This document shows, piece by piece, positions 13,304 to 64,000 of a stretch of DNA of 64,000 nucleotides; position 1 is the stretch's first letter, and every line of letters begins with the position of its first letter. Under the pieces are notes generated by a model that was not told where the DNA came from, ran no database searches, and worked only from the letters and a program-made list of their open reading frames with translations. The translations under genes and the position numbers were made by a program. The DNA comes from Siphonodentalium dalli (lineage: Eukaryota > Mollusca > Scaphopoda > Gadilida > Siphonodentaliidae), in assembly GCA_032622095.1 (NCBI GenBank), contig CP136062.1, forward strand, positions 136,190,960 through 136,254,959. The letters are read 5' to 3'.

Positions 13304-14418
13304 TAGGGCTGGACGATATTAACGAAAATAAAAACCGCGATTTTTGGAAATTAAAACCGCTGGTTAACGATATAATCGCGGTTTTTTAAAACATCAGATA
13401 CTAGTAACTTAAACAGTTTCTCACTGTTCGCTAGAATCACATCATTGTCATTAATTTTGACAAGTTGACGTCAATAATAACATACACAACCTTTCAACCA
13501 GTGACAATCTCATGCTCGATCGATATTCGGAATGAAAAGTAAATTCACCGGTTAAATTCCGCTATTCGGACAATTTCTTTCCGGTGACTTGACAAATTCT
13601 GGTACCGTATATACCGATAATTAATAAAACCATTATCTAGTCTATGCCAAAACTAAAAGTGTTCTATACTATATAGTATCCTTTTCTAACTCGGTATATT
13701 CAACTATGTTGAGCAAATTCATATGTTGTTCCCGATGACACTTGCGTCGCTTGACAAATGGAATATGGTTTACCGTCAAGACAAATTTTAGCGAAGTCCA
13801 CACACACGTAGTACATAACTTTTGGAATTCGGCCAAGCAAGGACACCATGTATTTTGGGCGGGTTTGAAGCCCTAATTCTATAATATTGGTTTTAACCAA
13901 TCGCCGTGAGTGGTTTCTTCTAGACGAGAAGGGGGCGGTATCTTCGCTCATTTACTATTTTGATTGACGGTGCATGTGCATCATTGTACTGAAGGAAGAG
14001 GCATGGCAAAACTGACATTCATATTGATCTATCACCCGATCAGTCGTCAATTCATTTGGTGAATTCTCTTGTAATAAAAAGTACGCAGGGAAGTCGGAAG
14101 GGTTTGTGTAATATTGTGAGCGAAAGGGGGACGTATTCAGGGTTTTCATATCCCCCTAATTTTGTTAGTCGTCCTAAACGTTGTTTATTATGATTATTGA
14201 ATATTGAAAAAGTCAGGACACAGGGATTTAGTTGGAATTTAAAACTTAAATAACTCGATTTAGGCTTGAGTTAAACTATTTGTTTGTATACGCTTATGAT
14301 GGTCTGGCACCCTCTAATTGCCGACGATATTACGATTATTTTAGTTTAGACGATATTACTGACGATATTGAAATATTAACCTGGTATTGACGATTAATCG
14401 GGAAACCGCCCAGCACTA
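13304..14418. mobile_element. hAT-like MITE 1, 1115 bp, with 8 bp target duplication
   Basis: The element starts TAGGGCTGGACGATAT and ends CCGCCCAGCACTA. It is flanked on both sides by GTGATAGT (13296-13303 and 14419-14426), an exact 8 bp target duplication as made by hAT transposases. The interior has small open frames on the minus strand at 13700-13951 and 13955-14149 with no intact domain, so it is non-autonomous or decayed. Confidence 0.9.
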
Positions 14419-22099: not shown

Positions 22100-22329
22100 G
22101 TTATGGAGACTAAGTGGCTAGTCCTCGGCGGAATCTGTGTCCATCTTATATTGTTCTATTCAATATTCGATGTTTATTTTACATCGCCTTTGGTTCATGG
22201 CATGACTCCGATTTCACCACGATTGCCACCCCCTGCTAAAAGACTCGTACTTTTTGTTGCTGACGGGCTCAGGGCAGATAAGCTGTTTGAATTGGATGAG
22301 AAAAAAGAAAGTCATGCGCCATATATTCG
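22100..22329 (+). CDS. PIGN: PIGN exon with start codon, residues 1-76
   Basis: The exon is preceded by a pyrimidine tract ending in CGATAG, a good 3' splice site only three bases upstream of the ATG at 22103, so at least one 5' UTR exon must lie further upstream; I could not locate it. The exon encodes the signal-anchor helix (residues 5-26), the [11 protein letters not shown] segment typical of PIGN and the first metal-binding motif, [11 protein letters not shown]. The donor is GTAGGT, splitting Arg76 after two bases. Reading through the donor meets TAG at once. Confidence 0.94.
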
Positions 22330-25300
22330 GTAGGTATTTTTGTATCAACTTCAATTACCTTCAAACACATGGAAAATTTCAACTAATAGATATTTTTATC
22401 TGAAACTTTTAATGTATCATAATCGAGTTTACGGCTCATAAACTCTATTTAATGTAATTTTCATGTATATACCATCTTTTGAGCGTGTATGCGAGTGTAT
22501 TCAGCATGCATCCTCGACTAAAATTAATCAATTTGTGGCATATTTTCCGTTGAATGAAGTGGAAGGCATCTTATAAATGGTTGGATTTGCGTACAGCATC
22601 CCTTTAAACTGATGATAAAAAAAAATTCCGACCTACCTACCTGAAAGTTTTTGGCCACCAAATTGAAAACACATACCAGTACATTTGTTTTGCCTTATAT
22701 ACTCTGAAAAAATACTCACCCAAATAATCTCCACACAGAAGTGAGTCAAACACTCTTTAGTTTTACTGTAGCAATTAAAAAAAAATTGAACAAATATTCG
22801 TCTCCACCCTGAAAATTGACAAACAGTACAACTGTACATGAATTTATGTACGGTATTATATTCAGAACAATAAATAATTTTTGTTTGTTTTTTTTTGTTG
22901 CAATATTTAAACAAATTTGTTAACCAGGCTATTAAATTGCCGTTGCTTAAAATGTGAACTGTATTTCTTTTTTAGAAACATTGCAGAGACAAAAGGATCT
23001 TGGGGGATTTCACACACTCGTGTTCCAACAGAGTCACGGCCAGGTCATGTCGCTCTTATTGCTGGCTTCTATGAGGATGTCAGTGCGGTAGCTAAAGGTA
23101 CGTCTACCTTGTAACATTCACCTGAGTGCAAATAAAAAAAAATTGCATTAAGGATTTTCTTTCAAATCCTATTCAAAATCACCCTCTGTCTGTGAATACT
23201 TTTTTATGGTTCTATTAGGACATAGAACTGTTTTGTGAAAGCACTGTCATATCTAAGACATATTTACATAGCCTGTTTCATTTACGCTAATTCCTATTCA
23301 TCTATTGGTCAGTAACCATCAGTTGCCAATTGGGTCATGCAATTTATTGTGAACTGAAATGAAATAAAATGACCTTGTTTACCTAATATTTACCACAAGG
23401 TGTTGGTAGAACAATTGGGCTTGCTTTTTAAGCGCTCAGCCACATTCTAATTTGGTTGATCATTCACAGGTAGAACATGGGCTAACTTGCAGTGCTGCAT
23501 AGAATAATCTCTATACTAGATAAATATTTCAGAAAAAAACAAGAATTATTTCAGCTGATGTTATGGAAAAAAAAGAAAAGTAAGAAAAAGCTGTATAAAT
23601 ATTAGAAATAAATGTAGTTAGTGCATCTTTAATTGAGGGATACAGCGTTGTCGTCGGAGCGCATTTAGCACAATGTGCCCAACAACCACAGTGGTATATC
23701 AAACCAAGTCTGAGTTTAGTGTGCCTGTCATTTGCAGAATTAGGTCCCCAGAAGGTGAATTTAGTGATGCTATCCCGCATAGCAGGCTATCATCACTAAA
23801 TTCATCCTCTGGGGACCTAATTCTGCTTAGGCCTCATCTTCTGAAAGATTCTTGATATCAAATTTCTATAGAAACTTCTTCACATAGATTCTATTTCTTT
23901 GTTAGTTTAGTTTCTCTATAACCCCAAATTGACAGACGACACATTGCATAATCGAGGTTTCCAATGGGTGTACATCACAATATTCACCATTTGGAAACTT
24001 TATATCTGAGTCTATTCTCCCATAGCAGATGAGGCCTAAGCAGAATGAGGTCCCCAGGGGAGAATTTGGTGATGCTAGCTCGCTATGTGGGATAGCATCA
24101 CTAAATTCACCCTCTGGGGACCTCATTCTGCAAATGACAGGCACACTAAACTCAGGCTTGTATCCCACAATAAAAAAACTATATTCATATCTTAAATAAA
24201 GTGATTTCTTAGTTTAATTTAATTTAATTTCAGGCTGGAAAGAGAATCCAGTAGAATTTGACTCTGTCTTTAATCAGAGTATGTACACCTGGTCATGGGG
24301 AAGTCCGGACATCCTACCAATGTTTGCTACAGGTAACATTATTGATGGGTAGCCACTTGGTTCCCATTGATAGGGATGTTCAAGCTTTTCAACTTTTTAT
24401 AGCATATTACTTACTTGAAAATAAGTAATAATAATTAGATGTTCGATGTCTTATTCTTCAGATGATGCTGATTCCAAACAATTTGTCTGGAATTTGAATT
24501 AATAAGGGTCTGAAAATTTGAGGTGATGAGCATTTGCTTTCATTACTCCACTTTTTAGCTCAACATGACAAAGTCAAACTTCATATGGATCATATAGGAG
24601 GATGACTTCTAGATGGGAGCCATCAATTTTTTCTGAAATTCATTTAAAAAGATGGCCGCCAGCAGCCATCTTCCATTTCAAGTTTGAATCCATTGGCACA
24701 ACCTGCAGCCCACAATTATTGGAGAAATGTTTTGAATATTTACAGGCATGTTTAGGATCACCTCTAGATGCCAGGAAGCTATCAAATTTAACTGATTTTC
24801 GATGAAAAAAACCTGGCCACCGGCAGACATCTTGTATTTTACTGTTTCCATGACTAAATCATTAGGCACACACAGACCACATCCCTTTTCTGATCCCCAC
24901 CAAATTTTATATGGATCTTCAGGGTGACTTCTAGAAGGGAGCCATTGATTTGTTCTGAAATTCATTGAAAAACATGCCAACAGTCATCTTGGATTTCAAT
25001 TTGAACCCATTGGCACACCCTGCAACCGCATTTATCAGAAAAATATTTCTAAAATTTACAGGCATGTTTAGGATCATTTCTATACAGGAGCTATCAAATT
25101 TTGCTGCCGGCAGCCATTTTGGATTTTACTCTTTGCATGACAAAATTCTTTGGCACACCCTACAGACAAATCTTTCATCTAATTGTCATCAAACTTGATA
25201 TAGTTCCTCAGGGTGACTTCTAGATGGGAGCCATATAAATTTTCTGAATTTCATTGAAAAATATTGCTGCCAGCAGCCTTCTTGGATTTTACTTTTTTCG

Positions 25301-28300
25301 TGACTAAATCCTTTGGCACACCCTACATGCCTCATCCTTTATCCGATCGTCACCAAACTTCGGGGTGACCTCTTGATGGGAGCTAGAGTGTATAAAATTG
25401 TTCCGAAATTCATTAAAAACATGGCTGCCAGCTGCCATCTTGGATTATCCATTTGATTCCATCAGCACACCATGCAACCCACACATATCGGAGAAAAGTT
25501 TGAGATGAAAATAATTTCATCTACACAATACAATCCCTTAACTGAAAACAATTGTACTCTATCATTTTATTGACTGCTCAGCATAAAATTGATGCCTCCC
25601 CAAGTTGGGCTACAGTGTCAATGACACACTCCTCGATATTGGCCACAGCAATAAGCAATGCCATCGGAAAAGCCATGGCAACATGTGGCATCTAACATGC
25701 CACAGCATTAAATTTTCCATGGGACATTTTTCCTAATTTCAAGGGCTTTCGACACTTTCATTTGTAGATTATTTTTAAATTGTAAAAAAAATTCATCGAT
25801 GTATGATTTTCATGGCAGCACAGCTATTTACCAATCAAAACAAGCCTTGCCTCCAGCTCTAGGTAAAGTTAAGAAATTTATTTCTTAATTTCTAGGTGCA
25901 AGTGGTACTCATGTATTTATCAATTGTTACTCTGCCAATGAGGAGGATTTTGCTGGATCAGAGTCATACAAACTTGATACCTGGGTATTTGATCAGGTCA
26001 AGGTAAGATTTTAGACCATACTTTGACATTTGACATAAAAAGTTTCAGGAAGTGTAGGCAATTATTGTTTTCATGTAGGTGCTCGCACCAAACAGGCCTT
26101 GTTCTTTTAGTTTTTTTGTACGCCTTTTAAAAAAAACTGGATGTATTAATTTCCGTCCATTGGTCCATATGACTGTCCGTCAGTTTGTTTTTGGTCTCCA
26201 GATGGTAACTTTAGATAGTCTGAACTGAATGAAATGTGGTATGTGTTTACTAACACAATATACAGGTCAAGTTCAAATTTGGGTTCCGTCATCCAATTTT
26301 TACCAGAGTTATGGCCCTTTGTTGGAATTACCACAAGCTTATTATGCCATGCCCTAGCAATGCTCTTGTGGGTACTATTTCAGAATATTTTACTCTATTC
26401 TTTCAGACACCAGTACATATACATGTTCAAGTTTTTCATTTATGGACTCCTCAACCAGTGGATACTAACCACATTGAACCCCCAACTAATTAATGAGGCG
26501 CAAGGCGGAATTTTATTTGTGCCTTTTCTTTAATTAAACTCTTACCACATGTTTTATTTTTCATGTAGAATTTTCTAGAGGAAGCAAAGACTAACAGAAC
26601 CTTATATGATATGATGCACAAGGATAAGATTGTCTTATTCCTTCATCTACTTGGATTAGATACCAATGGGCACTCTCACAGACCATACTCTGAGTAAGTA
26701 ACCATGCTCGTCATTAATTGACGATGTATACCAGCTCTATGGACAATTTTTATGAAACCTGTTTGGCATCTTATTCAGATTTTAGTGTATAAAATGATTT
26801 TGTGAAACAGCAACCCATTCAAAAAAATCTGTGTTCTCAGTTTTACTCAAAAAATCAGACGATAGAGGGAGGCTTTTTTTCCTCGGAATCTCCTATGATA
26901 AATTGAAATATCACTAAATTCTTATTTCTTAATGCTATATGCTGAAGACATCAAACAATTATTATATTAACCCCAGTTTCCTTTTGTATGCCACAGACGG
27001 CTCTTGTTCCACTGTTTACAATTGACCATGTCTCATGTCTGAATGTATACCCATGTCGAACAACTTGGACCATTAGAAAATATTATGAAGTATATAATTA
27101 ATGAAAATGTATGGTTTTTCATGTTATTCCCCATTTTTCTGACATTTTATGTACTAGTATTGAATGCTGAAGTTATACTACGTCTGCGCTTACTCAGCTG
27201 ATCAACTTCTTTGAGACATGGCGAATACATGTACTAGGCATTCATTCAAGTTTCATACTGGTACTCGCCCCAGATGTTGGTTGCTGATGGGACAGCTTAT
27301 GCTACATAGGAAAACCCTGGGAGAATGATGACAGTCGTGTGAACCAAAGTTTTATTTAAAAACAAAACTAAATTCAGTTCAAGAATATCTCCCATGGATA
27401 TGAGTCAACAATTTCCCTTTTTTTTCAAATCAGGAGAAACTTTTTTGAAATTTTGAGTCCATAGCATGCCTCATGTAATAACCAAGAACAGGATTGTCGG
27501 TTGTTCAGTCCTGAATGTAGAGCATGGTATCTTGCTTGAACTTTGAAGCAGCAATCTCTGAATCTGAGAAGCATTCTTATTGACATAGAGTAATGCCCTA
27601 AGTAATCGACCCCTTAACCACAGCAGAATTATGGGTAACTTTTCAGGATTTAGTCAGAAATATGGCTTGTTGCCATTCATCGGAAAGCTCTCAGAAATAT
27701 GGCTTGTTGACATTCATCAGAAAGCTCTCAGGGAGAGCTTTCCGATGATTGGCAAAAAGCCATATTTCCGACTAAATCCTGAAAAGTTACCCATAATTCT
27801 GCTGTGGTTAAGGAGTTGATTACTTAGGGCATTACTGTAGGACTAGTTTGTTTCTTATGTGCGATCATGATAAATAAAGGATGTCTGCAGTTATGGAGTG
27901 AATTGCAGGTACCAGTGGAAATATGCTGCAAATTATTATTATGTGACCTCATATATTTATAGTTATGGTTCAAAGTTGGTTTTTATCACTCTTGGGGTTA
28001 TGACTTACCTATGCTAACATAACGAGAGTTGTAAGGCTCACTATTACTCGAACATGGCTTTTTTGAGCCCCTAAAAATTATGTTTATGTAATTTGAAAGC
28101 AGGCATAAGAAAGGTCAATAAATACTTGATAGATATATCTACAGGCTTAATAAACTCTGAAACTTAATGGCAATGTTTTAGCTGTTTTAAAGTTTACACA
28201 TTGAAAATAGCTCTTTATTTTAACCATATCAGGAATAGACTCTTCCTGAACCACTCTTTACTGTTCCATGAAATAAAATTCGGGACCCAATTGGTCTAAA

Positions 28301-31300
28301 TATGTGTTCTATGAGTTGAATGAGTCTTTCTGCAGTATATAAAGTCTGTATAAATAGAGGATCTCACATGAGTTCCTATTTTATACGGAATTTATCAACC
28401 GAGTTCACTAAATTCGATTTGAGCCGAGGTTTACCGAGGCTCAAATAGAATTTAGAGGACGAGGTTGATAAATTACGTATAAAATAGGACGAGTGTGAGA
28501 TACCTTTTATCACATGATCAAATAAACCCGAAGAAACGTGAAATATTCATCGAAAACAACAATCATAATCTACAGCGATCGCAAGTTATCTGAAGAACGC
28601 CGTGACGTCATCGCACGCGCTGATATTAAATGTGTCTATTACCGATAATTATGAAACTGCTTTTATGGCCAAATTATGTGATAAAGGTATTTAATGTATT
28701 TATCATCCTACCTAACCATAGGGAGCCACGCATACATAAGAGAATCTACTGGCTTACAAGGTCAAAGTAAATATTATTATGCCAATGCCTTCTCTAATAT
28801 ATGTGATGCTCGCATATATAAGAGAAGGCATTGGCATAAGGTTTTCACAAAATTTCAGGAAGCTCCAGTCATGGAAGGGTTGGATCAGATTGCCTGACAT
28901 TAATTGTTACCCGTTTATGTTTAAGGCTTCTCTAGCTCCACTGATTTATTAACCCTTGACAAAATTTCATAAAGCTTCAGTCATGGAAGGGTTAAAGTCC
29001 ATATAAATGTGTTTAATGTATTTATCAATCTACTTTGGTACCCAGAAACTGGCTTCAAACTGCTACAGGATTTAAATCCACAATACCACATGTGAGCATT
29101 TTGTCCCCTCAGTTGCTACTGATATATTCTTGTGGTTGTGTTAACCCTTTCATGATGGGAGCCATTCTGGAGGAGCAATAAAGATCTTGTGCCAGTGCAT
29201 TCTATAAGAGAATGCATTGGCACAGGTGTTTCGCTAAATTTCAGGAAGCTCAAGTCATGGAATGGTTATAGATCTAAGCAAAATAATTTATGAAACATAT
29301 TTACTACGTTTGTTGTATTTCAGGGAATATCTTCAAAATATCAAGATTGTTGATAAAGGAATAAAAGAGATGGAGGATCTTTTAGACAATTTCTACTACA
29401 ATGATGGTAAAACATCGTACATCATGACATCAGACCATGGGATGACAAATTGGGGTAAGCTTACTACTGTAATACACAAGCTCTGAAACACAGTGCTTGC
29501 TTTGTCTTACTAGTACTGTTCCATGCTTTCGTTGTTTTAGCCCTGGCATGGGTTATAATAAAATACTTTATCTATTAATAAAATTAATGTTCTGTTTCTC
29601 AGACAACTCCTCATAAAAATATGGCCAACTGGGTGCTTTTTATAGTCCACCGAAAAAAATAAAAATTAGAAATCATCCTGCCACTCTGCTTCTCAAAACT
29701 ATTTCCACAATCTCTGTACACTACTGACCATAACTCTGGCTGGACATATTGTTGCCTCATGCTAAAATGTTCTATATCAATTTTGGAATGCAAATGAGAT
29801 AACATTAACTTTTGATTCGGCGTGGTACTTTCTGTCCGAAAATCACAAGATATTGAGCATAGCATTTACCAGATATGAATGAGAGGCTATGCAAATATGT
29901 TCCATAACCAGAATTAGTTTTTATGTCAGTGCTGTATTGTTCTATCTCCACTGTGGACCAATGAATTTATTTATTTTGTAACACATGATCGCATAAATTT
30001 TAGTGCTATATAATGTTCTAACTCGAACCGACAATAGTAAGCAATTGGAACTAATGGCCATTAATATGCCTGACTGGAAATAGTGAGCACTTTCGTACTC
30101 TTATATATGAAATCTTAATTCTAACTGACTTCGTTGGTTAAAATAGTACTGAAAATGAAATAATGTGCGAGATTGTACTTTGGAATGATTTAAAAACCAC
30201 TTTAGCACTTACGAAAAAAGCCATATTGTTCAGCAAAGTGTTCTATCTCCAAACACATGTCAACTGATTACATGAAAAATACTGACATTAAAGAAAGACA
30301 ATTTAAACATATCAGTTTTTCGTTTCCAAGGATAAAATGAAAACAACAAAGGTGAAAATAAAGCAGACATATACGAAAACCAGATGGTAATTTTCAAATC
30401 GAGTTTCCCACAAATAATGAAAAATGGATATAGAACATTGTAGCACGATGCGACGATATTTCAACTTGTATTTGATATTTCTCTTTGTTATTTCTGATAA
30501 AAAATAAAGTTTTCTTTTTGGTTTGTTTAACTGTATATACTTTGGTTGTAAAACAGACTGTTAAATTGAAATTATATTAACTCTAATTATGAAAATTCAT
30601 TTTTTACAACAATAATTTTTATAATATGTGAGTAAAGACATAAAAACATGCCTGGTGGGAAATTTGGGTTGTAAACAGTGGGAATAAAAACCTGCCAGCT
30701 GGGTCATTTTGTAGGTAAAAAAATAAATATAAAAACCTTCCTGCCTGCCGATTTTGAAAAAATAATTGTCCAAGAAACAGACAATAAACTTTGTGTGGCC
30801 TACAGTAGTTAGTGCCCAAAGAAATGACTCCTCTCCAAAGGAACTGAAGGAAGTATGTCTTTTTGAAACTAATATTAACCTCTTGGCTGCTATATGTCCA
30901 TACTGTTTAAGTACATAAAATGTCACAATGTGGGCTAGATGTCCGTATTGAGTATGGGAACTCAGAAATTAGTGCCTCGGATCCCGTGTATTTCAACATT
31001 TGGACTTTTTATGATATTCGAGGATTGTGTTTCACAATATCATTTGCGTGGAGTCCGTTTTAAAGTTTTTATAACATTCCTGTGTAATTTTCTGCTGCAA
31101 AATTGCCATAACATCAACAGACCAGAACTCAACATCATTCAGCAGTGGAGAAGTTAAGACATGTGGCTAATTTCAAATGTAATGTGCCAATTCATAACTC
31201 ATCAGATTCATGGTCAGTTTGTACTCAATATGTTCACAAACTAAAGCAGTTTTTCATAAAACTGTTCAGTTTTATTATTTATCTATGACAGGTTCCCATG

Positions 31301-34300
31301 GTGCTGGTGATCCAGAGGAAACACTTACACCTTTAGTTGCCTGGGGAGCAGGAATAAGAGGACCGATCAAAATCCAGGAAAAGCAGTCTCACAAAGATGA
31401 CTTCTCCACAAGTAAGTTTGGTTTAAACAGCATTTATGTTACCCCTAGATAATTTCAATCCGATAGTCATATAAAGCCACTGGGCGGTTTGTGCTCCAAA
31501 ATACAACTAATAATATTTGCTTTTTAATTGTTTTCTGTATCGAAATAGGTTGAAAAAAGTATTTAAGACTTCATTTACTGCTTTCTCTTCATTTTAATCA
31601 TCAAATTTTGTAGTGCCATCTACATTTCAAAGAGACAACAGCTCTAGATTTTCTTCCCATGGTCTACAGTTCAAATTTTTACGCACCCGCTGATTTAAAA
31701 AAATTAACTGCACCAGCTGACCGCACAAATGAATCAATCTGAAATTTATAAAAATAATATGAACAAAACACGTATTTTCAGCGCTATATCGACAAATTTG
31801 TTCGGAAATCTTCCATGTTGGTATTTTTTGAGATACATGTACACCTTACTAAATAATGTTTAGATAATTTTGGGGTTCGAATGAGCCATATCTGTTTTAA
31901 GTTCTTGCTGGGGTTGAATTGGAGCCTTCTAATGTTGTTTAAAATTAACCTTTATATTATCCACTTAAAATGCTTATGTGATTGCCACTTGGCAATAAGA
32001 CAATCCATTATAATATTGTTAAAGGAATATTTGAAATTTGACATGACATGACCAAATCAATGTTTTCTGATATTAATATTTGAGGGTACATCTCACATTG
32101 AAAGCATCTATCAAGTATCAGACATGCTCGCGACTATATGTAGCAAGTTCATGAAGTCATTTTTCTGTGCAGAAACTAAATAGCACAAATATATTGACTG
32201 TTATTAATCTCATTTGTTAGTTGATTAATGAAATCTCGTACACAAAGAATTTTCAGGTAAATTATTGCTCAAACCCGTACACCAAACCACAAATTGTTTA
32301 TCAATGGACTTGTCAATGCCTAGTTAAATGACAACTCCATCATAGTCACCATTGTTCCACTTGAGTTGAACTGGCCCATTCTATAATTCTTTACAACTTA
32401 TATCATATATACCAAAAACTCGAATGAATTACGTTATTTCCATTAATATAGATTGAAATAGAGTTAAAGGTGCACATATCTCATAGAGCTGTCAGTTGAT
32501 GGGGTCAAGAACAATAACAATAACACAGGCTAGTGTTGAAACAATTAGTCGACTAGTCGATGTCGACTATAGAATTTAGGCGATAATCGATTAGCAATCT
32601 CCAAGTCGACTAATCACCATATTTCCCAGAAAGGTATAGATAAACGTTTCATTGGTAGCAATCATTGATGCATGTAGTATACTACCATATTTATCGTCGC
32701 TCGTGTATATAAAGCAAAAATGATTGGGATGGAATCTAAAATACGACCGCCTTTTCGCGGTTAAGGTATTATAAAAACATGTTTCCAATCTAGATATTCA
32801 GTCATCGCATAAGCCATACCAACCTGTTATAGTATGCTATTCGCCGTAAAAACGGGGCCCTTTTGATGTCTCTTCGATTGGAAATCATTGTTCGCCTAAG
32901 TACCCATTCCTGTATTCAAAGTGCGGCATCTTTGATCTACGATATTCTATGTCCGACGTTGCAACAGATATATTGTTTGACGATGCGGTGACTGATACAA
33001 GATCAAACCGATTTCGACGTGTTCACTTTACTCTTGACTGGGCGCTTGTATAATTATGATTATATTGTGCTGGATTATGCCAATATATCATTCAGATTGC
33101 TAATCAAGTCATTGACTCATTGTCATACAACCACACACCCCTAAAAGTTAGGAAACTTGTTGCATCCAGCTGTTTCAAAGTCTCTCTATAGTAAATTATG
33201 ACCGTCACTTCGTTGGGATGCTCACGAACATAACTTCAACACTTACCCCAATATTATATGATAGGAGTGATATGAGTGATAATTACCTGTCACTTTTGGC
33301 TCAGTGTCAACACCAATATATATAATGATAAATATGCATGTTTTAATAAATTTATGATGACAAACAGCTGTGAATTGGGCAGATCATCGATGTCTAAGAA
33401 AATAATTTGATAATCCCAAATGGGTTTTTGATCGTTCTATATATATATAGTAGGTGTCGACTAGTAGTCGGCTTATGGCTGTCAACTACGAAATACCCTA
33501 GTCGTTTCAACTCTAAAACAGGCGGCATGTTGACAGAAGTAAAGTGTTGTTCATGCGACACACATGCTTCACATGGTCCATAAGCCAATGAGATCAGCCG
33601 TGATTTTGATTGGCTAATTCACTTTACTTATATGCCCTTTTTGAAAAAAGGTTGTATTATGTTATCAGTCTGTCCGTCTGTCCGTTCGTCCGTCCGTCTG
33701 TCTGTCCGTCCGTTAACATTTTTGGTTTCCGATCGATAACTCCAGTTTGGAGTATTTGATCTGAACCAAAGTTGGTATGTGTATTTCTCAGCTAAAGATA
33801 CAGGCCAAGTTCGAATATGGGTTCCGTCCAGTTATTTTTACATGAGTTACGGCCCTTTTTCAACTTAGAATTTTACCAATTTCATAACATTTTGGTTTCC
33901 GACCGATAACTCCAGTTTTGATTATTTGAGCTGAACCAAAGCTGGTATGTGTATTTCCCAGCTAAAACTACAGGCCAAGTTTGAATATAGGTTCTGTCTA
34001 ATTATTTTTACATGAATTATGGCCATTTTTCGACTTAGAATTTGACCACATTTTGGCATTGAAATTATAGGGGTACATGTATATCAGGTTTTCTTCAAAT
34101 GTAAGCTCAAAGTATTATCTTATTTTGCGATAGTACAATTCAAAATTGCTAAAGGGTGTATTTTGCCATGCCCTAGCGATGCTCTTGTTGTAAACCTGAA
34201 TAGCTCTACTCACCGACTGCATTTGACATAGGCACCATTTTATTGCACAAAACAGTTCTCATTTCTAATTAAGCATTCCAATACAGACCCCATAACCATC

Positions 34301-61300: not shown

Positions 61301-62590
61301 TATTAGTCCGAATTTTTCTTTAAAGTTAAAAATCTTTTTTGTTGGGTTTACGGATAATGCGGGTTGAATTTGCCACGGTGGGGGTATGCTAACACTCGAG
61401 TGCACACCTCTTGTTTATTTTATAGTTGGACACTAGCTAACAATTACAGCATAATTTTTCGATACTAAAATATAAGCCTAGTGTATAAGACACATGTTAA
61501 AATATAAGCCTAGTTTATAATAAACATGCTAAAATGTATGCCTAGTTTATAAGAAACATGCTAAAATGTAAGCCTGGTTAATAAGAAACATGCTAAGCTA
61601 ATATGTAAGCCAAGTAAGACATAAGCTAAAATATAAGCCTAGTTTATAAGACACATGTATGCTAAAAGTAAGCCTAGTTTATAATAAACATGCTAAAATG
61701 TAAGTATAGATTATAAGACACATGCTCTTTTAACATGTTTAATATGAGTTTGACAGAGCCATTAAATTTAGCTGTTTCATTGCCCTGATGAGTTTGGTGA
61801 ACTTTTAAAATATATGTTGGTGCATTATATATTTTCATGACTGATCGATGTGGATTTTTTTTTCTTAGACTGACAGGACCAAATTATTTTGGTCAGAAAT
61901 TTTTTGGCCATCTGCAAAAGGCAAATCAAGAGAATAAATTACAGACTAATCTGATATATGTTTATTTCAGTGCTTCATTTTCGTAATCGCAGTATGCTCT
62001 GTACACCAAGTTGGACACTTTGTGTCGGCCAAATCAGTTATTCCTGTGGGAAATCATATAGTCAGTTGGCTTATACTAGGTAAGTTCTCTGATGAATATT
62101 CTCCATTATATTCCTCATATGTTGATCCCAAATCATGCCTTTTTATTCCTCATATGGTGATGCTAACTATAGCATTTCATAACTCTTTCATTAATTATAA
62201 ACACATATTCAATGGAATCACAATAATTGAATAAATACTTTTTAAAAAGTTATTTGAAATACAATGTATTCGGCTGGAAGCTTCATATTCTGAAAACAAA
62301 TACAATTGCTGAACATAGTTATTTTTACGCATGTTATAAATAGATAGGGAAACATACATCATACTAATATCGTATGCTAAATGTCTGTTAACCAGCACAG
62401 CACTGTTGCACCATACAAATGCCTGAGAAAATACAAAAAAAGGTATTTATTTGTAATAAGCTTACACTTGCTTTTTTTTATCTTCAGTGTCCGGCTTTGT
62501 GATACCTCTGTTAACCAGTACGGTAGTGATACACAGACTCAACAGTATTTCTATGGCACTGTTCTCGGTGTTCCTTCTGCTCAGCATATC
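22100..62590 (+). CDS. PIGN: GPI ethanolamine phosphate transferase 1, 23 exons, 3' end outside window
   Basis: This ER-membrane enzyme adds phosphoethanolamine to the first mannose of the growing GPI anchor. Coding starts at the ATG at 22103 and runs through 23 exons whose phases all agree, giving 743 codons plus two bases. Residues 5-26 form an N-terminal membrane anchor. The lumenal alkaline-phosphatase-superfamily domain follows, with VADGLRAD (Asp54), [10 protein letters not shown] (Thr94, candidate nucleophile), DTNGHSH (Asp216, His220), TSDHGM (Asp264, His265) and GSHGAG (His273), the expected two-metal centre. Hydrophobic multi-pass segments begin near residue 450. Long runs match animal PIGN closely, such as the [20 protein letters not shown] region and the [13 protein letters not shown] region. 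The usual protein is about 930 residues, so roughly the last fifth is missing beyond the window. Introns are rich in MITEs. I found no in-frame stop or frameshift in the exon chain. Confidence 0.96.
22976..23097 (+). CDS. PIGN: PIGN exon, residues 76-117
   Basis: Acceptor TTTTTTAG, donor GTACGT. It encodes the most conserved stretch of the family, including [18 protein letters not shown] and [13 protein letters not shown]. Thr94 is the likely nucleophile by family analogy. Gly117 is split after its first base. Confidence 0.97.
23704..24161. mobile_element. Long inverted-repeat foldback element
   Basis: 'GAGTTTAGTGTGCCTGTCAT' through 'GCAGAATTAGGTCCCCAG' at the left is mirrored by 'GACCTCATTCTGC' and 'AATGACAGGCACACTAAACT' at the right. 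Each arm itself contains a smaller inverted pair around 'GTGATGCTA'. A fragment of the same family is at 52895-52970. Confidence 0.83.
24234..24332 (+). CDS. PIGN: PIGN exon, residues 117-150
   Basis: Acceptor TTTAATTTCAG, donor GTAACA. It encodes [16 protein letters not shown] followed by [14 protein letters not shown], both close to other animal PIGN proteins. Asn130 lies in an N-glycosylation sequon (NQS) on the lumenal side. Confidence 0.96.
24548..25500. repeat. Array of the 'GGCATGTTTAGGATCA' repeat in PIGN
   Basis: About five diverged units of roughly 180-200 bp, each with a 'GACTTCTAGATGGGAGCCAT' motif, a 'GGCAGCCATCTTGGATTT' motif and 'TTTGGCACACCCTAC'. Units differ by point changes and small deletions. 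Confidence 0.82.
25896..26002 (+). CDS. PIGN: PIGN exon, residues 150-185
   Basis: Acceptor TTAATTTCTAG, donor GTAAGA. It encodes GASGTHVF, a variable acidic stretch, then [11 protein letters not shown], which aligns with the family. It ends on a codon boundary. Confidence 0.95.
26110..26372. repeat. GTCC-type dispersed repeat, short copy
   Basis: It opens with TACGCCTTTTAAAAAAAACT, contains TCCGTCCATTGGTCC and ends GCCCTAGCAATGCTCTTGTG. Longer copies are at 33633-34190 and 53434-54416, each ending 'GCNCTTGTT'. Confidence 0.72.
26569..26693 (+). CDS. PIGN: PIGN exon, residues 186-227
   Basis: Acceptor TTTTTCATGTAG, donor GTAAGT. It contains [18 protein letters not shown], whose Asp216 and His220 are expected metal ligands. 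Asn194 is in an NRT sequon. The last codon is split after two bases (Glu227). Confidence 0.96.
27591..27834. mobile_element. Foldback MITE with about 110 bp arms
   Basis: TAATGCCCTAAGTAATCGA at the left and its reverse complement at the right bound arms that pair over most of their length, including 'GGATTTAGTCAGAAATATGG' against 'CCATATTTCCGACTAAATCC'. The left arm has an internal duplication (ATATGGCTTGTTG twice). Confidence 0.87.
28360..28502. repeat. 143 bp hairpin in PIGN
   Basis: ATCTCACATGAGTTCCTATT pairs with AATAGGACGAGTGTGAGAT, and the arms continue to a 'GAGCC'/'GGCTC' tip. Confidence 0.83.
28715..29270. mobile_element. Cluster of TTAA-type MITEs with 'GCATTCTCTTATATA' hairpin
   Basis: Three members: a degraded one at 28715-28900, a deletion derivative at 28951-29000 that runs straight from one end to the other (TTAACCCTTGACAAAATTTC), and one at 29141-29270 starting TTAACCCTTTCATGATGGGA and containing the palindrome 'CAGTGCATTCTATAAGAGAATGCATTG'-like core in short form. 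Confidence 0.75.
29324..29454 (+). CDS. PIGN: PIGN exon, residues 227-271
   Basis: Acceptor TTGTATTTCAG, donor GTAAGC. It encodes [12 protein letters not shown] and [19 protein letters not shown]. Asp264 and His265 belong to the second metal site. The preceding intron of 2.6 kb carries two long foldback elements and several TTAA-type MITEs. Confidence 0.96.
30875..31157. mobile_element. TTAA-flanked MITE, family 'CCTCTTCGCTGC', copy 2
   Basis: TTAACCTCTTGGCTGCTATA at the left and CAGCAGTGGAGAAGTTAA at the right, TTAA at both edges, interior matching the copy at 19342-19667 ('GAACTCAGAAATTAGTGCCTCGG'). Confidence 0.75.
31292..31411 (+). CDS. PIGN: PIGN exon, residues 271-311
   Basis: Acceptor TCTATGACAG, donor GTAAGT after CACAA. 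It encodes [20 protein letters not shown]; His273 is the last metal ligand of the alkaline-phosphatase-like fold. The exon ends one base into Lys311. Confidence 0.96.
32531..33515. mobile_element. hAT-like MITE 2, 985 bp, 8 bp target duplication (7/8)
   Basis: It starts TAGTGTTGAAACAATTAGTC and ends GTCGTTTCAACTCTA. The flanks are ACACAGGC (32523-32530) and AAACAGGC (33516-33523), differing at one base. 'GTCGACTAGTCG' words lie in both ends. No transposase frame. Confidence 0.82.
33633..34190. repeat. GTCC-type dispersed repeat, medium copy
   Basis: It opens 'TATGCCCTTTTTGAAAAAAGG', has GTCCGTCTGTCCG words at 33670-33712 and two repeats of 'GATAACTCCAGTTT...CAAAG', and ends GCCCTAGCGATGCTCTTGTT. 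Confidence 0.8.
35292..35332 (+). CDS. PIGN: PIGN exon, residues 311-324
   Basis: This 41 bp exon has acceptor TTTTATAAG and donor GTATGT. It encodes [14 protein letters not shown], matching the position of the KEWRLENWKRLDVNQ segment in vertebrate proteins. Both neighbouring junctions keep the frame. Confidence 0.9.
35711..36168. mobile_element. TTAA-type MITE pair with 'GCATTCTCTTATATA' hairpins
   Basis: Two copies abut: 35711 (TTAACCCCTTAATTATGGGA) to 35943, and 35939 (TTAACCCTTTCATGATGGGA) to 36168 ending GTCATGTAAGAGTTAA. Both carry paired 'AATGCATTCTCT' and 'AGAGAATGCA' arms around a 'GGCTCCCTATGGGAG' core. Confidence 0.8.
36232..36460. mobile_element. TTAA-type MITE, same family, opposite orientation
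   Basis: It begins TTAACCCTTCCATGTCTGAA, which is the reverse complement of the usual right end, and finishes 'GGATCTTTAATGCTGAAATGGTTAA', the reverse of the usual left end. It lies about 50 bp before the exon at 36514. Confidence 0.78.
36514..36573 (+). CDS. PIGN: PIGN exon, residues 325-344
   Basis: The 60 bp exon encodes [20 protein letters not shown], close to the family ADIAPLM and PLNSV signature. Acceptor TATTTTTCAG, donor GTATGT. A partial copy of the exon start (TTTTTTAGGCTGATAT) sits directly upstream, making a decoy acceptor 17 bases before the true one. A TTAA-type MITE begins 17 bp after the donor. Confidence 0.94.
36591..36823. mobile_element. Chimeric TTAA-type MITE 17 bp after a PIGN donor
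   Basis: The ends TTAACCATTTGAGTGCCAAT and GACCTGGCACTCAAAGGGTTAA belong to the family seen at 59414-59644. The core at 36703-36779 is the 'AGGCCAATGCATTCTCTTAT' hairpin of the other TTAA family. The core hairpin is nearly perfect. Confidence 0.8.
37483..37575 (+). CDS. PIGN: PIGN exon, residues 345-375
   Basis: Acceptor CATATTCCAG, donor GTAATT. It encodes [11 protein letters not shown] and [13 protein letters not shown], corresponding to the ILPVDYL and NAVQILEQFK segments of vertebrate PIGN. It is 31 whole codons. Confidence 0.95.
38238..38293 (+). CDS. PIGN: PIGN exon, residues 376-394
   Basis: Acceptor TTATTCCAG, donor GTAAGA. It encodes [18 protein letters not shown], aligned with VKMTQKK and FTPFK in vertebrates. 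It ends two bases into Lys394. Confidence 0.94.
39047..39068 (+). CDS. PIGN: PIGN 22 bp microexon, residues 394-401
   Basis: The exon is only 22 bp, flanked by TTTTTCAG and GTATGT, and encodes the end of Lys394 then NLTLSDQ. Without it the frames of the flanking exons do not join. The NLT at 395-397 is a possible glycosylation sequon. Vertebrate proteins have LLSDSKQ here. Confidence 0.85.
39823..39879 (+). CDS. PIGN: PIGN exon, residues 402-420
   Basis: Acceptor CTATTTCACAG, donor GTGAGT. It encodes [19 protein letters not shown], a helical segment before the first polytopic membrane span. It is 19 whole codons. Confidence 0.9.
40718..40797 (+). CDS. PIGN: PIGN exon, residues 421-447
   Basis: Acceptor TTGTTTTCAG, donor GTAAGT. 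It encodes [18 protein letters not shown], nearly identical to the family signature LSYYHTYDRFFLG just before the membrane domain. It ends two bases into Gly447. Confidence 0.96.
41473..41636. mobile_element. Short inverted-repeat MITE, second copy
   Basis: ACAGAATACAACTTGCATCA at the left pairs with GATGCGCGTTGTGTTCTGT at the right. The middle is itself palindromic (GTTGCGGACGGCGCA against TGCGCCATCCGCAAC). Confidence 0.83.
42640..42830. mobile_element. Possible pogo/Tigger-like MITE remnant
   Basis: The stretch 'AAAACCTCTCCAAACCGGAC' with repeated 'CTCT...CCGAAT' words resembles ends of Tigger-like MITEs known from many animals. I matched it by resemblance only, without finding a clean partner end. 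Confidence 0.4.
43028..43215 (+). CDS. PIGN: PIGN exon, residues 447-510
   Basis: Acceptor TTGTCTTTGCAG, donor GTAAGT. It encodes a membrane span ([16 protein letters not shown]), a charged loop, and the start of a second span ([15 protein letters not shown]). The pattern of FIGWICY matches FVGWISY in vertebrates. Confidence 0.95.
43678..43802. repeat. Tandem repeat, about 22 bp period, six units
   Basis: The unit is a variant of TGAGACAAGTGAAATATGAC, repeated six times with increasing divergence towards the right ('GAGACCAGGGAAATATGA'). Confidence 0.88.
44463..44535 (+). CDS. PIGN: PIGN exon, residues 510-534
   Basis: Acceptor CCCTTGCAG, donor GTAATT. It encodes [20 protein letters not shown], matching the CPWTYYVYGLLPLPIW segment of vertebrate PIGN. 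The intron before it carries a short-period tandem repeat at 43.7 kb. Confidence 0.95.
44736..45333. mobile_element. Inverted-repeat element, about 600 bp
   Basis: TTGATAAAACGCTCGGTAAT and following 'TCCAA' pair imperfectly with 'TTGGAATTGCCAAGTGATTT' at the right. Inner arms 'TCTAAGACATGCGCAC' and 'TGCACATGTCTTAGA', then 'GCCAACTCGCACTG' and 'CAGTGCGAGTTGG', also pair. Confidence 0.78.
45752..46548. mobile_element. Possible MITE with 'GGGACGGGCGGCC' ends
   Basis: AAAGGGACGGGCGGCCGTCG at the left and AGGGAAGGCCGCCCTTATCTTT at the right are imperfect inverse copies. An 83-codon open frame at 46251-46502 has no recognisable domain. Confidence 0.55.
46620..46722 (+). CDS. PIGN: PIGN exon, residues 534-568
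   Basis: Acceptor TTACTTTCAG, donor GTCAGT, which is weaker than the other donors. It encodes [15 protein letters not shown] and [11 protein letters not shown], a loop and membrane helix. Frame joins both sides. Confidence 0.92.
46780..47125. mobile_element. Small MITE with 'GTTAGTCCGAG' ends and subterminal repeats
   Basis: GTTAGTCCGAG at 46780 is matched by CTCGGACTAAC at 47115. Directly inside the left end a 16 bp unit (CGAGGGTTCAATAGTC) is repeated about four to five times. Confidence 0.75.
47216..48421. mobile_element. hAT-like MITE 3, 1206 bp, exact 8 bp target duplication
   Basis: It starts TAGAGTTGTAACGGTGTCGG and ends 'AACCTTCCAACACTA'. CTTGCAAC flanks it on both sides (47208-47215 and 48422-48429). 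'CCGAGACCGAGACCGAGG' near the right end and 'GGTGTCGGTGTTG' near the left are subterminal repeats. The 84-codon frame at 47987-48241 has no domain I recognise. Confidence 0.88.
48661..48753 (+). CDS. PIGN: PIGN exon, residues 569-599
   Basis: Acceptor TTTTTTTGTAG, donor GTACGT. It encodes [20 protein letters not shown] and ends NK, a membrane helix that aligns with the RYMLTAGLTAFAAW region. It is 31 whole codons. Confidence 0.93.
49005..51640. repeat. 'GGCATGTTTAGGATCA' repeat split by a 2.2 kb insertion
   Basis: The left part (49005-49202, 'CACCCTACAGGCCACGTCC') and the right part (51376-51640, 'GGCACACCGTACAGCC', 'GGCATGTTTGGGATCACC') are pieces of the same dispersed repeat as at 24.5-25.5 kb. 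Joining them at the TTAA restores the usual 'ATTCATTAAAAACATGG'-like context. Confidence 0.8.
49203..51375. mobile_element. 2.17 kb TTAA-flanked non-autonomous element
   Basis: It starts CCCTTTACCCAACAG and ends CTGAACGCTAAAGGG, with TTAA duplicated at 49199-49202 and 51376-51379. This is the signature of piggyBac-type insertion: TTAA target and CCC-initial ends. No frame over 100 codons is present, so it is non-autonomous. Its interior (49.4-51.3 kb) is AT-rich. Confidence 0.83.
51880..52125. mobile_element. TTAA-type MITE with near-perfect hairpin core
   Basis: It contains 'GCATTAAAGATCCTGTGCCA', two hairpin modules and ends GTCATTGAAGGGTTAA. The module at 52007-52077 pairs 'GCCAATGAATTCTCTTATAT' with 'ATATAAGAGAATGCATTGGC' around 'GGCTCCCTATGGGAG'. 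It lies about 110 bp before the exon at 52234. Confidence 0.82.
52234..52325 (+). CDS. PIGN: PIGN exon, residues 600-630
   Basis: Acceptor TTGATTTCAG, donor GTAAGT. It encodes [20 protein letters not shown], close to the VFPLMPVVGRK signature. The donor region is duplicated in tandem 70 bp downstream; reading on to the second donor would pass a TAA, so the first donor is the functional one. Confidence 0.95.
52318..52455 (+). repeat. PIGN: 70 bp tandem duplication of a PIGN splice donor
   Basis: AATATGGTGTAAGTTTATTT at 52319 recurs at 52389, exactly 70 bp on, followed by the same 'CACTTCACTTTTACC' and 'CTATACTAAATG' sequence with only a few differences. The duplicated copy includes a second perfect GTAAGT donor. 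Confidence 0.9.
53434..54416. repeat. GTCC-type dispersed repeat, full-length copy
   Basis: It opens TTTATACGCCCTTTTGAAAA and has GTCCGTCCGTCCGGGCGTCC words at 53477-53525. Four or five diverged units of about 160-180 bp follow ('GATGATAACTTTAG', 'GGGTTCCGTCCGCCAATTTT', 'GAGTTATGCCCCTT'). It ends GGGCGTATATTGCACGCCCA and 'GCTCTTGTTTT', the reverse of its beginning. Confidence 0.82.
54553..55058. repeat. 51 bp minisatellite, about ten units
   Basis: The unit GGCCAGTGTGAACCCTGCTT plus 'GTTGGGGCATAAATGGTAGA' and 'ATTTAATTAAT' repeats every 51 bp with few changes, ending about 130 bp before the exon at 55187. The units are much more alike than those of the 66 bp array, suggesting a younger expansion. 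Confidence 0.95.
55187..55237 (+). CDS. PIGN: PIGN exon, residues 630-647
   Basis: This 51 bp exon has acceptor ATTTCTTTCAG and donor GTGAGT. It encodes [16 protein letters not shown], a hydrophobic segment in the place of the VMGAGLLVLLL helix. Identity is low, but the phase fits on both sides. Confidence 0.78.
55846..56045. repeat. 200 bp hairpin
   Basis: 'GGTGACATGTAATAAACACA' pairs with 'TGTGTTTATTACACATCACC', and 'ACATGTGTTAATGGGTT' pairs with 'AACCCATTAACACACATG'. The tip carries 'TAGAACTCGAGGA' repeats. Confidence 0.85.
56379..56573. repeat. 65 bp tandem triplication
   Basis: CAGCATCTGTGGTACAACCT begins copies at 56379, 56444 and 56509, each exactly 65 bp apart with one to a few differences. 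Confidence 0.93.
56653..57889. mobile_element. hAT-like MITE 4, 1237 bp, exact 8 bp target duplication
   Basis: It starts TAGTGCTGGGCGGTATGACG and ends AATATCGCCCAGCCCTA. AATTTTTC flanks both sides (56645-56652 and 57890-57897). The ends and the 'ATATCG' repeats just inside them match the element at 13304-14418, though the interiors differ. A 99-codon frame at 56789-57088 has no recognisable domain. Confidence 0.92.
58897..58975 (+). CDS. PIGN: PIGN exon, residues 647-673 (less certain)
   Basis: Acceptor GTTTCTATAG, donor GTATGT. It encodes [20 protein letters not shown]. It is chosen because the exon before ends two bases into a codon and the exon after starts in phase 0, so a piece of 1 + 3n bases is required; this one is 79 bp. 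FLVVSSARK resembles SLCVVTSLMKRK in vertebrates. A pyrimidine-rich decoy acceptor (TCTCCCGACAG) lies inside it, so its 3' portion could be wrong. Confidence 0.65.
59101..59491 (+). repeat. 198 bp tandem duplication
   Basis: AAAACGGTGCCATTTCTATT begins at 59101 and again at 59299; the copies are nearly identical over at least 193 bp. Each includes the left half of the MITE that is complete at 59414-59644. Confidence 0.93.
59414..59644. mobile_element. Palindromic TTAA-type MITE
   Basis: TTAACCCTTTCAGTGCCAAG at the left and CTTGGCACTGGAAGGGTTAA at the right, with arms that pair through 'GATTTTTGTATCAACCCATA' and on to a 'TGTGATACATTAATGTATCACA' tip. Each arm is about 100 bp apart from an AT-rich expansion on the left. 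Confidence 0.9.
59872..60335 (+). repeat. About 249 bp tandem duplication
   Basis: 'CCGATTGAGCCCAAACTTGC' at 59875 recurs as 'CCGATTGAACCCAAACTTGC' at 60124. The copies share 'CCTTCAACTGCCACCG' and 'TAATTAATGAGCGTTTGTAT' at the same offset with scattered changes. Confidence 0.87.
60390..60640 (+). repeat. Diverged duplication of 'TGACCTTG...GATAT' block
   Basis: 'AATGACCTTGGGCGATATCT' near 60447 recurs as 'AATGACCTTGGCCGATATTT' near 60585, with the upstream 'GGTACCC' and 'TTTGTCC' words also repeated. Confidence 0.7.
60964..61416. repeat. Dispersed repeat 'TATACCCCACTTTCG', second GTCC-type family
   Basis: It opens TATACCCCACTTTCGAAGAA then an inverse 'TGGGGGGATATA', has CCGTCCGTCCG at 61057-61067, and ends 'GGGGGTATGCTAACACTCGA' and 'CACCTCTTGTTT'. 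Two copies of 'AACTATGAACCGATTTAAAT'-like text lie inside. Confidence 0.72.
61464..61725. repeat. Tandem repeat, about 31 bp period, eight units
   Basis: The unit is AAAATATAAGCCTAGTTTAT plus AAGACACATGCT, with indels between copies. It ends about 245 bp before the PIGN exon at 61971. Confidence 0.88.
61971..62079 (+). CDS. PIGN: PIGN exon, residues 674-710
   Basis: Acceptor TTTATTTCAG, donor GTAAGT. It encodes a membrane helix ([15 protein letters not shown]) and the loop to [11 protein letters not shown], aligned with the MNQIISWATL region of vertebrate PIGN. It ends one base into Val710. Confidence 0.9.
62488..62590 (+). CDS. PIGN: PIGN exon ending at a U12-type donor, residues 710-744
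   Basis: Acceptor TTTATCTTCAG. It encodes [20 protein letters not shown] and then [11 protein letters not shown], aligned with the SLVVPLLSSP and YLLLSTGYEALF segments of vertebrate PIGN. No GT donor fits before an in-frame TGA about 20 bases on. Instead the exon ends at 62590, followed by ATATCCTTT at 62591, the consensus of a minor-spliceosome AT-AC intron. The split codon (TC plus one base) gives Ser744, and the next residues expected from the family are YEALF. Confidence 0.9.
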
Positions 62591-64000
62591 ATATCCTTTA
62601 TTTCTCTGAATTTTATTGTAATTGTTCTTGAGATTTAACCCTATGATTACTACCGGTAATGGATTCTCCCATTCAGTTCAGAATGTATACACTGGAGTGG
62701 TCCATTCTTCAATTGTAGGAATGGTCAGGTTATGATCAGGTTAGGCTCTTCAGGTGACAATTCACCTGAAGAGCTTAACCCAAGCCAAATCATTTATACT
62801 ATATTTCAATACAAAAAGTATTTGTACACCAAATACCTAATTACCTAAGTCATCATACTTAACAAGGAATTTATACCGACCAGGCCTCAGCTCACAAGGC
62901 GACTCGGGCGAGATTGTCGCCTTACTGTCGCTGACTTCGCCCTATCGTCGCTCTAAGGCGAAATCGAAGTCGCCTTCAATTTTAGGGGGATTTTTTTGTT
63001 TGTTTTTTTCTTAATTTTTTTTCTAGTTTTTTTTCCGGACATGTCTGGACATGTCCGTATATAGATGAATTGTGGCGGCCATCCCAAAAAGAAACAGACG
63101 ATGCAGAGCCAAAGACCCAAGTGTTTAAAATAAAAAATAAAAATATGACCTATTGTTTTGTGTTGTTATTCCGTCGCCTTTGTTCCCTTTGCGGTAATGA
63201 ATGTTAATCACGAATGTTTTGACATGCTGAAAACACGATGAGATGTTCGCATCTGTGTTGTTACTGACCATCGTGAGTGTCACAAATAAATGTTTTAATT
63301 AACTTAAAAGACCGCCGCCCCGCTTTTCAGATATAAAACAATTACGACATTATCAGAGTATGTACCCGGCGCTTCGGAAGTTCGTTTCGGTAACGCGTCG
63401 GACTTTTTGAAGAGACCGCGTCGGACTTTTTGAAGAGACCGACTTCCGTAAATAAAATAATGTCAAGTTTATTGCTTTAATCGGATTATACCAGTGATGT
63501 TGGCATTAATTAAGGGAGGCCATTATTTAATAAAAGCTTTTGCAACTCCTTTGTTAGTCCTTCTTGTTTATTTTAGCGGACACCCACATTACAGCCGTGA
63601 CCAAATTAAACTTAAAAAGTTACATGCATCATGATTCAAACTGTACAAACGTATCTTCCAAGCTGCAGTCTAGGAAATAATACTACTTTCATAAATTAGT
63701 TAAAAAAGTAACTATTGTAACTTGATAATTGTCTTGCTTAAATGATAGCTACACAAAACATTTCCAAAAAATTTAAATGTATAATAACAATTAATTAAGC
63801 TAATTTCAGATAAAGTCAAATTTTTTTTAGTTTTATTTGTTATTTTATCTTTTTAAATTTTGTATTGTCAGATGTTATAAAATAAAGCGATATTTGAAAA
63901 TTGTCAATTTTTGGTAGTCTCTCCCCACCCTGAAGTCTCCCTAAATTTCCTGAAGTCTCCCTAAATTTCCTGGAGGGAGACTTCAAGTCTCCCTGTTCTG
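62591..64000 (+). other. PIGN: Start of U12-type AT-AC intron of PIGN, runs off window
   Basis: The intron opens with ATATCCTTT, matching the U12 5' splice-site consensus at all nine positions. A strong hairpin lies at 62739-62780. A palindromic stretch built of 'ggcgac' words lies at 62880-62980. A 26 bp direct duplication lies at about 63395-63445, and a duplicated, partly inverted 'gaagtctccc' motif at 63938-63995. I found no convincing U12 branch point followed by AC and a codon series for YEALF, so the next exon is probably outside the window. Confidence 0.8.
62739..62780. repeat. Near-perfect hairpin in the last intron
   Basis: GGTTAGGCTCTTCAGGTGA is followed almost directly by its near-complete reverse complement TTCACCTGAAGAGCTTAACC. 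It resembles the two joined ends of a foldback element with the middle lost. Confidence 0.8.

Follow-up and report, generated by a model that had tools for sequence, protein, structure and literature searches.

How does the gene PIGN of the scaphopod mollusc Siphonodentalium dalli continue beyond an exon that lies just ahead of an in-frame TGA? The exon (62488-62590, here exon B) lies near the end of the window, a stretch of 64,000 nucleotides (nt) at G000:C2:136190960-136254959 in a genome of 2.2 Gb and 9 contigs. A further 10 kb of DNA downstream of the window was fetched (L002); positions above 64000 are on the window scale, and the L002 position is the window-scale position minus 64000. 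On the sequence evidence it is almost certain that the interval from 62591 to 64914 is a real U12-type AT-AC intron, and that a second U12-type intron, with GT-AG ends, follows two exons later.

The gene was identified by profile. Eight 3' exons joined in the order A, B, C, E, F, D, G, H gave one open frame of 268 amino acids that ends before a stop codon, and this frame matched the PF04987 PigN profile with 232.6 bits (E 1.1e-68) over positions 234-456 of 456. The cut-off is 25.4 bits, and by this Pfam match the gene is PIGN, encoding glycosylphosphatidylinositol (GPI) ethanolamine-phosphate transferase 1. Exon B alone scored 21.9 bits, below the cut-off by itself. The genome-wide list for PF04987 (10 candidates scored) holds five matches, every one at this locus and inside a 26-kb stretch of C2; weak matches of exons elsewhere may have escaped it. 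Since exon B matches PF04987 and the listed matches all fall at the same locus, the exon was assigned to PIGN. A decayed PIGN copy, in which the U12 features would be remnants, is so improbable as to be negligible: nothing was found in its favour, the modelled gene is long (22103 to 71137, about 49 kb), and the frame is open through seven putative N-terminal exons and again through the eight 3' exons to the stop, at the only place among the listed matches where PigN was seen.

Exon B begins at 62488 directly after ...TATCTTCAG. At its donor end, the last whole codons of the frame read ...SVFLLLSIS; the remaining TC stands at 62589-62590 and is followed by ATATCCTTTATTTCTC. With a slash marking the splice site, 62581-62606 reads tcagcatatc/atatcctttatttctc, and the in-frame TGA stands at 62607-62609, 16 nt into the intron; reading on past 62590 gave SYPLFL and then the stop. 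The exon adjoins ATATCCTTT at 62591, which matches the U12-type 5' splice site RTATCCTTT, with 8/8 agreement at positions +2 to +9 and C at +5. The initial annotation had placed the exon start, the codon fragment TC and an AT-AC minor 5' splice site matching at every position exactly here, and these assignments held; the TC is completed by a G downstream.

The acceptor end was found beyond the window. YEALF-like codons ([YF]E[AGS][LIMV][FL]) occurred at one place in the 10 kb downstream, at 64916, where they are preceded by TTTCCTTAACCAATATCTCAC/G: the order is TTTCCTTAAC, CAATATCTCAC, then G/TAT GAA GGA ATG TTT. The branch site TCCTTAAC lies at L002:896-903 (8/8) and the terminal AC at L002:913-914. 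The branch adenosine is 12 nt before the last intron base, within the 11-13 nt expected for TCCTTRAY, and the parts of PMC3584512 consulted give 11-13 nt as the optimum distance from branch to 3' splice site. The predicted intron is 2,324 nt long and of phase 2. Its removal would give ...CATATC/GTATGAAGG, in which TC/G encodes Ser, followed by YEGMFGISLIVFLYFWI, and the protein reads S-YEGMF. The terminus CTCAC/G TAT GAA keeps the frame at the homologous codon. A branch motif 10-16 bases before an AC had been predicted from within the window, and was borne out. The prediction of S-YEALF stood in part: YEALF-like codons follow the acceptor in the required phase (G/TATGAAGGAATGTTT), and the residues themselves are S-YEGMF.

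The protein profile was also informative across the junction. Exons A and B read through to the TGA scored 47.5 bits, with residues 3-72 on positions 234-303, and the match stopped at 303. Addition of exon C raised the score to 72.9 bits, with residues 3-94 on positions 234-325. Because 92 residues fall on 92 profile positions, the junction adds or loses no residue overall. The TGA raises the alternative that PIGN transcripts end there, at least sometimes, with a truncated protein and a retained intron, the junction being a minor or failed event. The stop so close to the donor would allow this, and minor introns are generally reported to be spliced slowly and retained. The downstream part of the PigN domain (profile positions 304-456) is nevertheless intact, its frame staying open through a further six exons as far as the stop codon, which would hardly be compatible with disuse, and we regard this alternative as very improbable indeed.

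An alternative is that the major spliceosome processes exon B, either from a GT donor within it or by treating the intron as U2-type AT-AC, and that the resemblance to U12 is due to chance; this is very unlikely. GT dinucleotides do occur inside exon B, and by chance alone a 74 kb strand should hold about one copy of the U12 donor 9-mer. A scripted scan from 62509 to the TGA, which leaves out the exon's first 20 bases, found 11 GT or GC dinucleotides, the last at 62584 and none in 62591-62607. The best of these, CCAGTACGG, agreed with the U2 consensus CAG/GTRAGT at 5/9, in line with the earlier view that no usable GT donor precedes the stop. All of the sites listed are inside exon B, and their use would cost PigN-matching residues. 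Some AT-AC introns are indeed U2-type according to the parts of PMC2831892 drawn on here, where those of sodium-channel genes have G at +5, whereas the PIGN intron has C. No AG occurs before exon C in 64860-64914, where a perfect U12 branch site stands 12 nt from the AC. A U2-type AT-AC intron, an internal GT donor and a pseudogene were rejected on the +5 C, the GT/GC positions and the open frames.

The other U12-type intron is a GT-AG one and lies outside the window at 66215-67182 (L002:2215-3182; 968 nt, phase 0), two exons downstream of the AT-AC intron. Its donor is GTATCCTTTT and its acceptor TTTCCTTAACTTGGTGACAG; the donor motif GTATCCTTT is accompanied by the branch site TCCTTAAC 11 nt from the AG end, and the frame is kept. 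Removal of this intron joins YFY-IFMT within the PigN domain. Exons E, F and D joined scored 90.4 bits against the PigN profile, with residues 7-71 on positions 342-406 (65/65, again with no difference in length). When exon E was read on up to a stop (38 amino acids), no Pfam match was obtained, a weak control for so short a piece. The two exons enclosed between the U12-type introns measure 88 + 81 = 169 nt, which is not a multiple of three, and the intron between them (C to E) has the U2-type donor GTAAGT.

To place these motifs against the rest of the gene, the 14 donors and 14 acceptors defined in PIGN were scored, a count that leaves aside introns among exons between 31.4 and 61.97 kb. Two donors matched the U12 motif at 8/8 and the other 12 at 2-5/8. 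The same two introns carry TCCTTAAC at 8/8, at 12 and 11 nt, and the other 12 acceptors scored 5-7/8; the single 7/8 match among them lies 7 nt from its 3' end. The donors of the six further N-terminal exons all start GTAA or GTAC and matched at 2-5/8. For chance occurrence, counts on the + strand of 74 kb were set beside the average counts in 60 Markov-1 sequences. The strict branch-plus-acceptor combination (TTCCTTAAC, then AC or AG in range) was seen twice against 0.23 expected, both times at PIGN exon starts. The loose 8-mer donor RTATCCTT was seen 7 times (3.3 expected). On the - strand of the same 74 kb there was no donor, loose or strict, and branch-plus-acceptor matches numbered 2 loose and 0 strict.

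Genes for the four small nuclear RNAs specific to the minor spliceosome were present in the genome. Rfam matches above cut-off, counted as lower bounds from the best candidates scored, comprised at least four genes for U11 (best 98 bits), at least two for U12 small nuclear RNA (snRNA; best 113.5), at least four for U6atac (best 98.5, weakest 45.3) and at least three for U4atac (best 91.8), with 0 matches for each in 14 control genomes. With G-U pairs allowed, the U11 5' end (TAAAAGGG) forms 6 bp with TCCTTT and, at the second donor, 7 bp; U6atac (AAAAGGA) pairs with both PIGN U12 donors over 6-7 bp; and U12 snRNA (TAAGGAAA) pairs with the branch site TTTCCTTA over 8 bp. The initial assignment of the intron to the minor spliceosome agrees with the presence of these genes and their complementarity to the donor and branch signals. 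CENATAC acts on AT-AC introns in particular. It is described as a minor-spliceosome component in the parts of PMC8280824 consulted, and CCDC84, its Pfam family, gave two exon matches in the genome; zf-U11-48K gave three.

Several observations weigh against the assignment of these introns to the minor spliceosome. The strict donor RTATCCTTT was seen 4 times against 1.2 expected, so that the donor alone is weak, and two of the four, those at 13676 and 59845, coincide with no modelled exon end. Loose branch-plus-acceptor matches showed no excess (3 against 4.05 expected). Introns of PIGN exons between 31.4 and 61.97 kb lie outside the classification; the exon candidates there were raw output of a crude splice-site filter and form no part of the PIGN model. 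The expected U12 snRNA site ties in length with a G-U-rich alternative (TGGGGAAA), and zf-U11-48K, a short zinc finger, also matched one archaeal control genome and gives weak support. The 62590/64915 junction is predicted from genomic sequence. Single motifs, the loose acceptor especially, prove nothing; what makes the predicted introns convincing is the strict motifs combined with their position, their phase and the fit to the protein.

If the two introns are spliced as predicted, the donors ATATCCTTT and GTATCCTTT would be recognised by U11 and then by U6atac, the usual order of snRNA contacts at such donors. U12 snRNA would pair with TTTCCTTAAC, bulging the branch adenosine, and the 3' site would be the AC 12 nt, or the AG 11 nt, downstream of it. 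With both introns precisely removed, the conserved PigN domain would regain S-YEGMF and YFY-IFMT, and a functional PIGN would need both removed by the minor spliceosome. We infer that the transcript is spliced in this way in cells and that PIGN output would be limited by minor-spliceosome activity; the GPI-anchor pathway of this animal would then depend on that machinery. If the first U12 donor were joined to the second U12 acceptor, the pairing would be AT-AG, and the 169 nt of the two skipped exons would put the reading frame out of step; in the parts of PMC3584512 consulted, pairings of AT with AG and of GT with AC appear disfavoured. It is an unlikely suggestion that the opposite subtypes guard against such skipping and that PIGN output, and with it GPI anchoring, is doubly gated by the minor spliceosome, perhaps especially by CENATAC.

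In PIGN a single housekeeping gene holds a clean, checkable example of both minor-intron subtypes, an arrangement in which it can be tested directly whether a mismatch of subtype keeps exons between U12-type introns from being skipped. A gene predictor that accepts GT donors alone would break the gene by truncating or dropping exon B. Biosynthetic-pathway genes are reported to carry few minor introns, in contrast to PIGN.

Features of the PIGN locus, with positions in the window or, beyond it, on the window scale or in L002.
Feature	Position	Strand	Remarks
Putative first PIGN coding exon	22103-22329	+	reads ...VADGLRADK..., assigned by family motifs; U2-type donor
Six further putative N-terminal exons	22976-23097, 24234-24332, 25896-26002, 26569-26693, 29324-29454, 31292-31411	+	single open frame when joined to the first exon
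Exon A	61971-62079	+	upstream neighbour of B; U2-type sites, acceptor TTTATTTCAG, donor TAG/GTAAGT; PF04987 match of open frame E 9.5e-4
Exon B	62488-62590	+	ends in codon fragment TC, phase 2; PF04987 E 8.8e-5 alone
Predicted U12-type AT-AC 5' splice site ATATCCTTTA	62591-62600	+	+2 to +9 against TATCCTTT: 8/8
Predicted U12-type AT-AC intron, part in window	62591-64000	+	whole intron to 64914 = L002:914 (G000:C2:136253550-136255873)
Exon C	L002:915-1002	+	follows the AT-AC intron
Exon E	66134-66214 (L002:2134-2214)	+	ends ...RRAYFY before GTATCCTTTTTG
Exon F	67183-67238 (L002:3183-3238)	+	preceded by TTTCCTTAACTTGGTGACAG; reads IFMTLGSFFGTGNIASVN

The putative N-terminal exons carry, in one open frame, motifs that may belong to the phosphodiesterase domain of the PIGN family. 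Repeats were seen by eye at two places. An imperfect tandem array with a unit of about 30 bases (AAAATRTAAGCCTAGTTTATAAGAAACATGCT-like) occupies 61470-61730 in the intron before exon A, and an inverted repeat (GGTTAGGCTCTTCAGGTGA...TTCACCTGAAGAGCTTAACC), perhaps a short transposable element, lies inside the AT-AC intron at 62739-62780; 62627-62700, adjoining it, has many partial copies genome-wide. Among the snRNA genes, four U11 matches of nearly equal score lie within about 8 kb at G000:C5:33341765-33350092, all on the + strand, and the two copies compared (L003, L004) look identical over 128 nt; they form a small U11 cluster. A distance of about 15 kb separates two U4atac matches of equal score (L009, L010), which share a strand at G000:C4:84693783-84708746; a third is on C9.

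Searches for PIGN relatives in the following collections gave none. A search of PDB sequences with exon B gave 0 matches, and one with the 268-residue joined protein gave no PIGN relative, only chance-level hits to Symplekin (E 1.1) and Titin (E 1.5). In two contig collections, which are not meant for animal genomes, 52 and 5 (viral) pattern matches were obtained and 0 confirmed. The human PIGN variant c.2283G>C, from the parts of PMC6688107 consulted, was considered for what it might show of the exon ends in human; its place on this gene could not be established, and it was not used. Literature searches, judged largely from titles and the openings of abstracts, showed no paper linking PIGN to minor introns; supplementary tables were outside their scope, and PIGN may well be tabulated there. 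Within the portions consulted, PMC9501576 contained no whole-word PIGN, and in PMC5481333 the mention of PIGN stands apart from a U12-type reference and has no connection with it.

Set beside the U12-type AT-AC family consensus, the PIGN intron is like known members in its ATATCCTTT donor, its TCCTTAAC-type branch site near the 3' end, its AC terminus and its C at +5. It differs in its host gene from the U12-type AT-AC introns of fly and human tabulated in the parts of PMC2831892 used here, among them those of PHB2, STX6, KCMF1 and SLC9A7. According to the sections of PMC10639083 consulted, about 26% of the minor introns in human are AT-AC, and some molluscs and arachnids, as well as a brachiopod, are relatively rich in minor introns. 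Clustering of U12-type introns was significant in all 21 genomes tested (PMC7367187, in part), and genes with two such introns number about 50 in human (PMC3584512, in part). Like published genes with several U12-type introns, PIGN has two among many U2-type introns. Its pair is of opposite subtypes, with the AT-AC intron first, the GT-AG intron two exons later and a U2-type intron separating them, and the host is a GPI-anchor biosynthesis enzyme, not an ion channel. U12-type introns, AT-AC ends and clustering of two per gene are all already published, and PIGN is a good example rather than a new kind. A GPI-biosynthesis gene is a less usual host, and opposite subtypes two exons apart are a notable feature of this gene.

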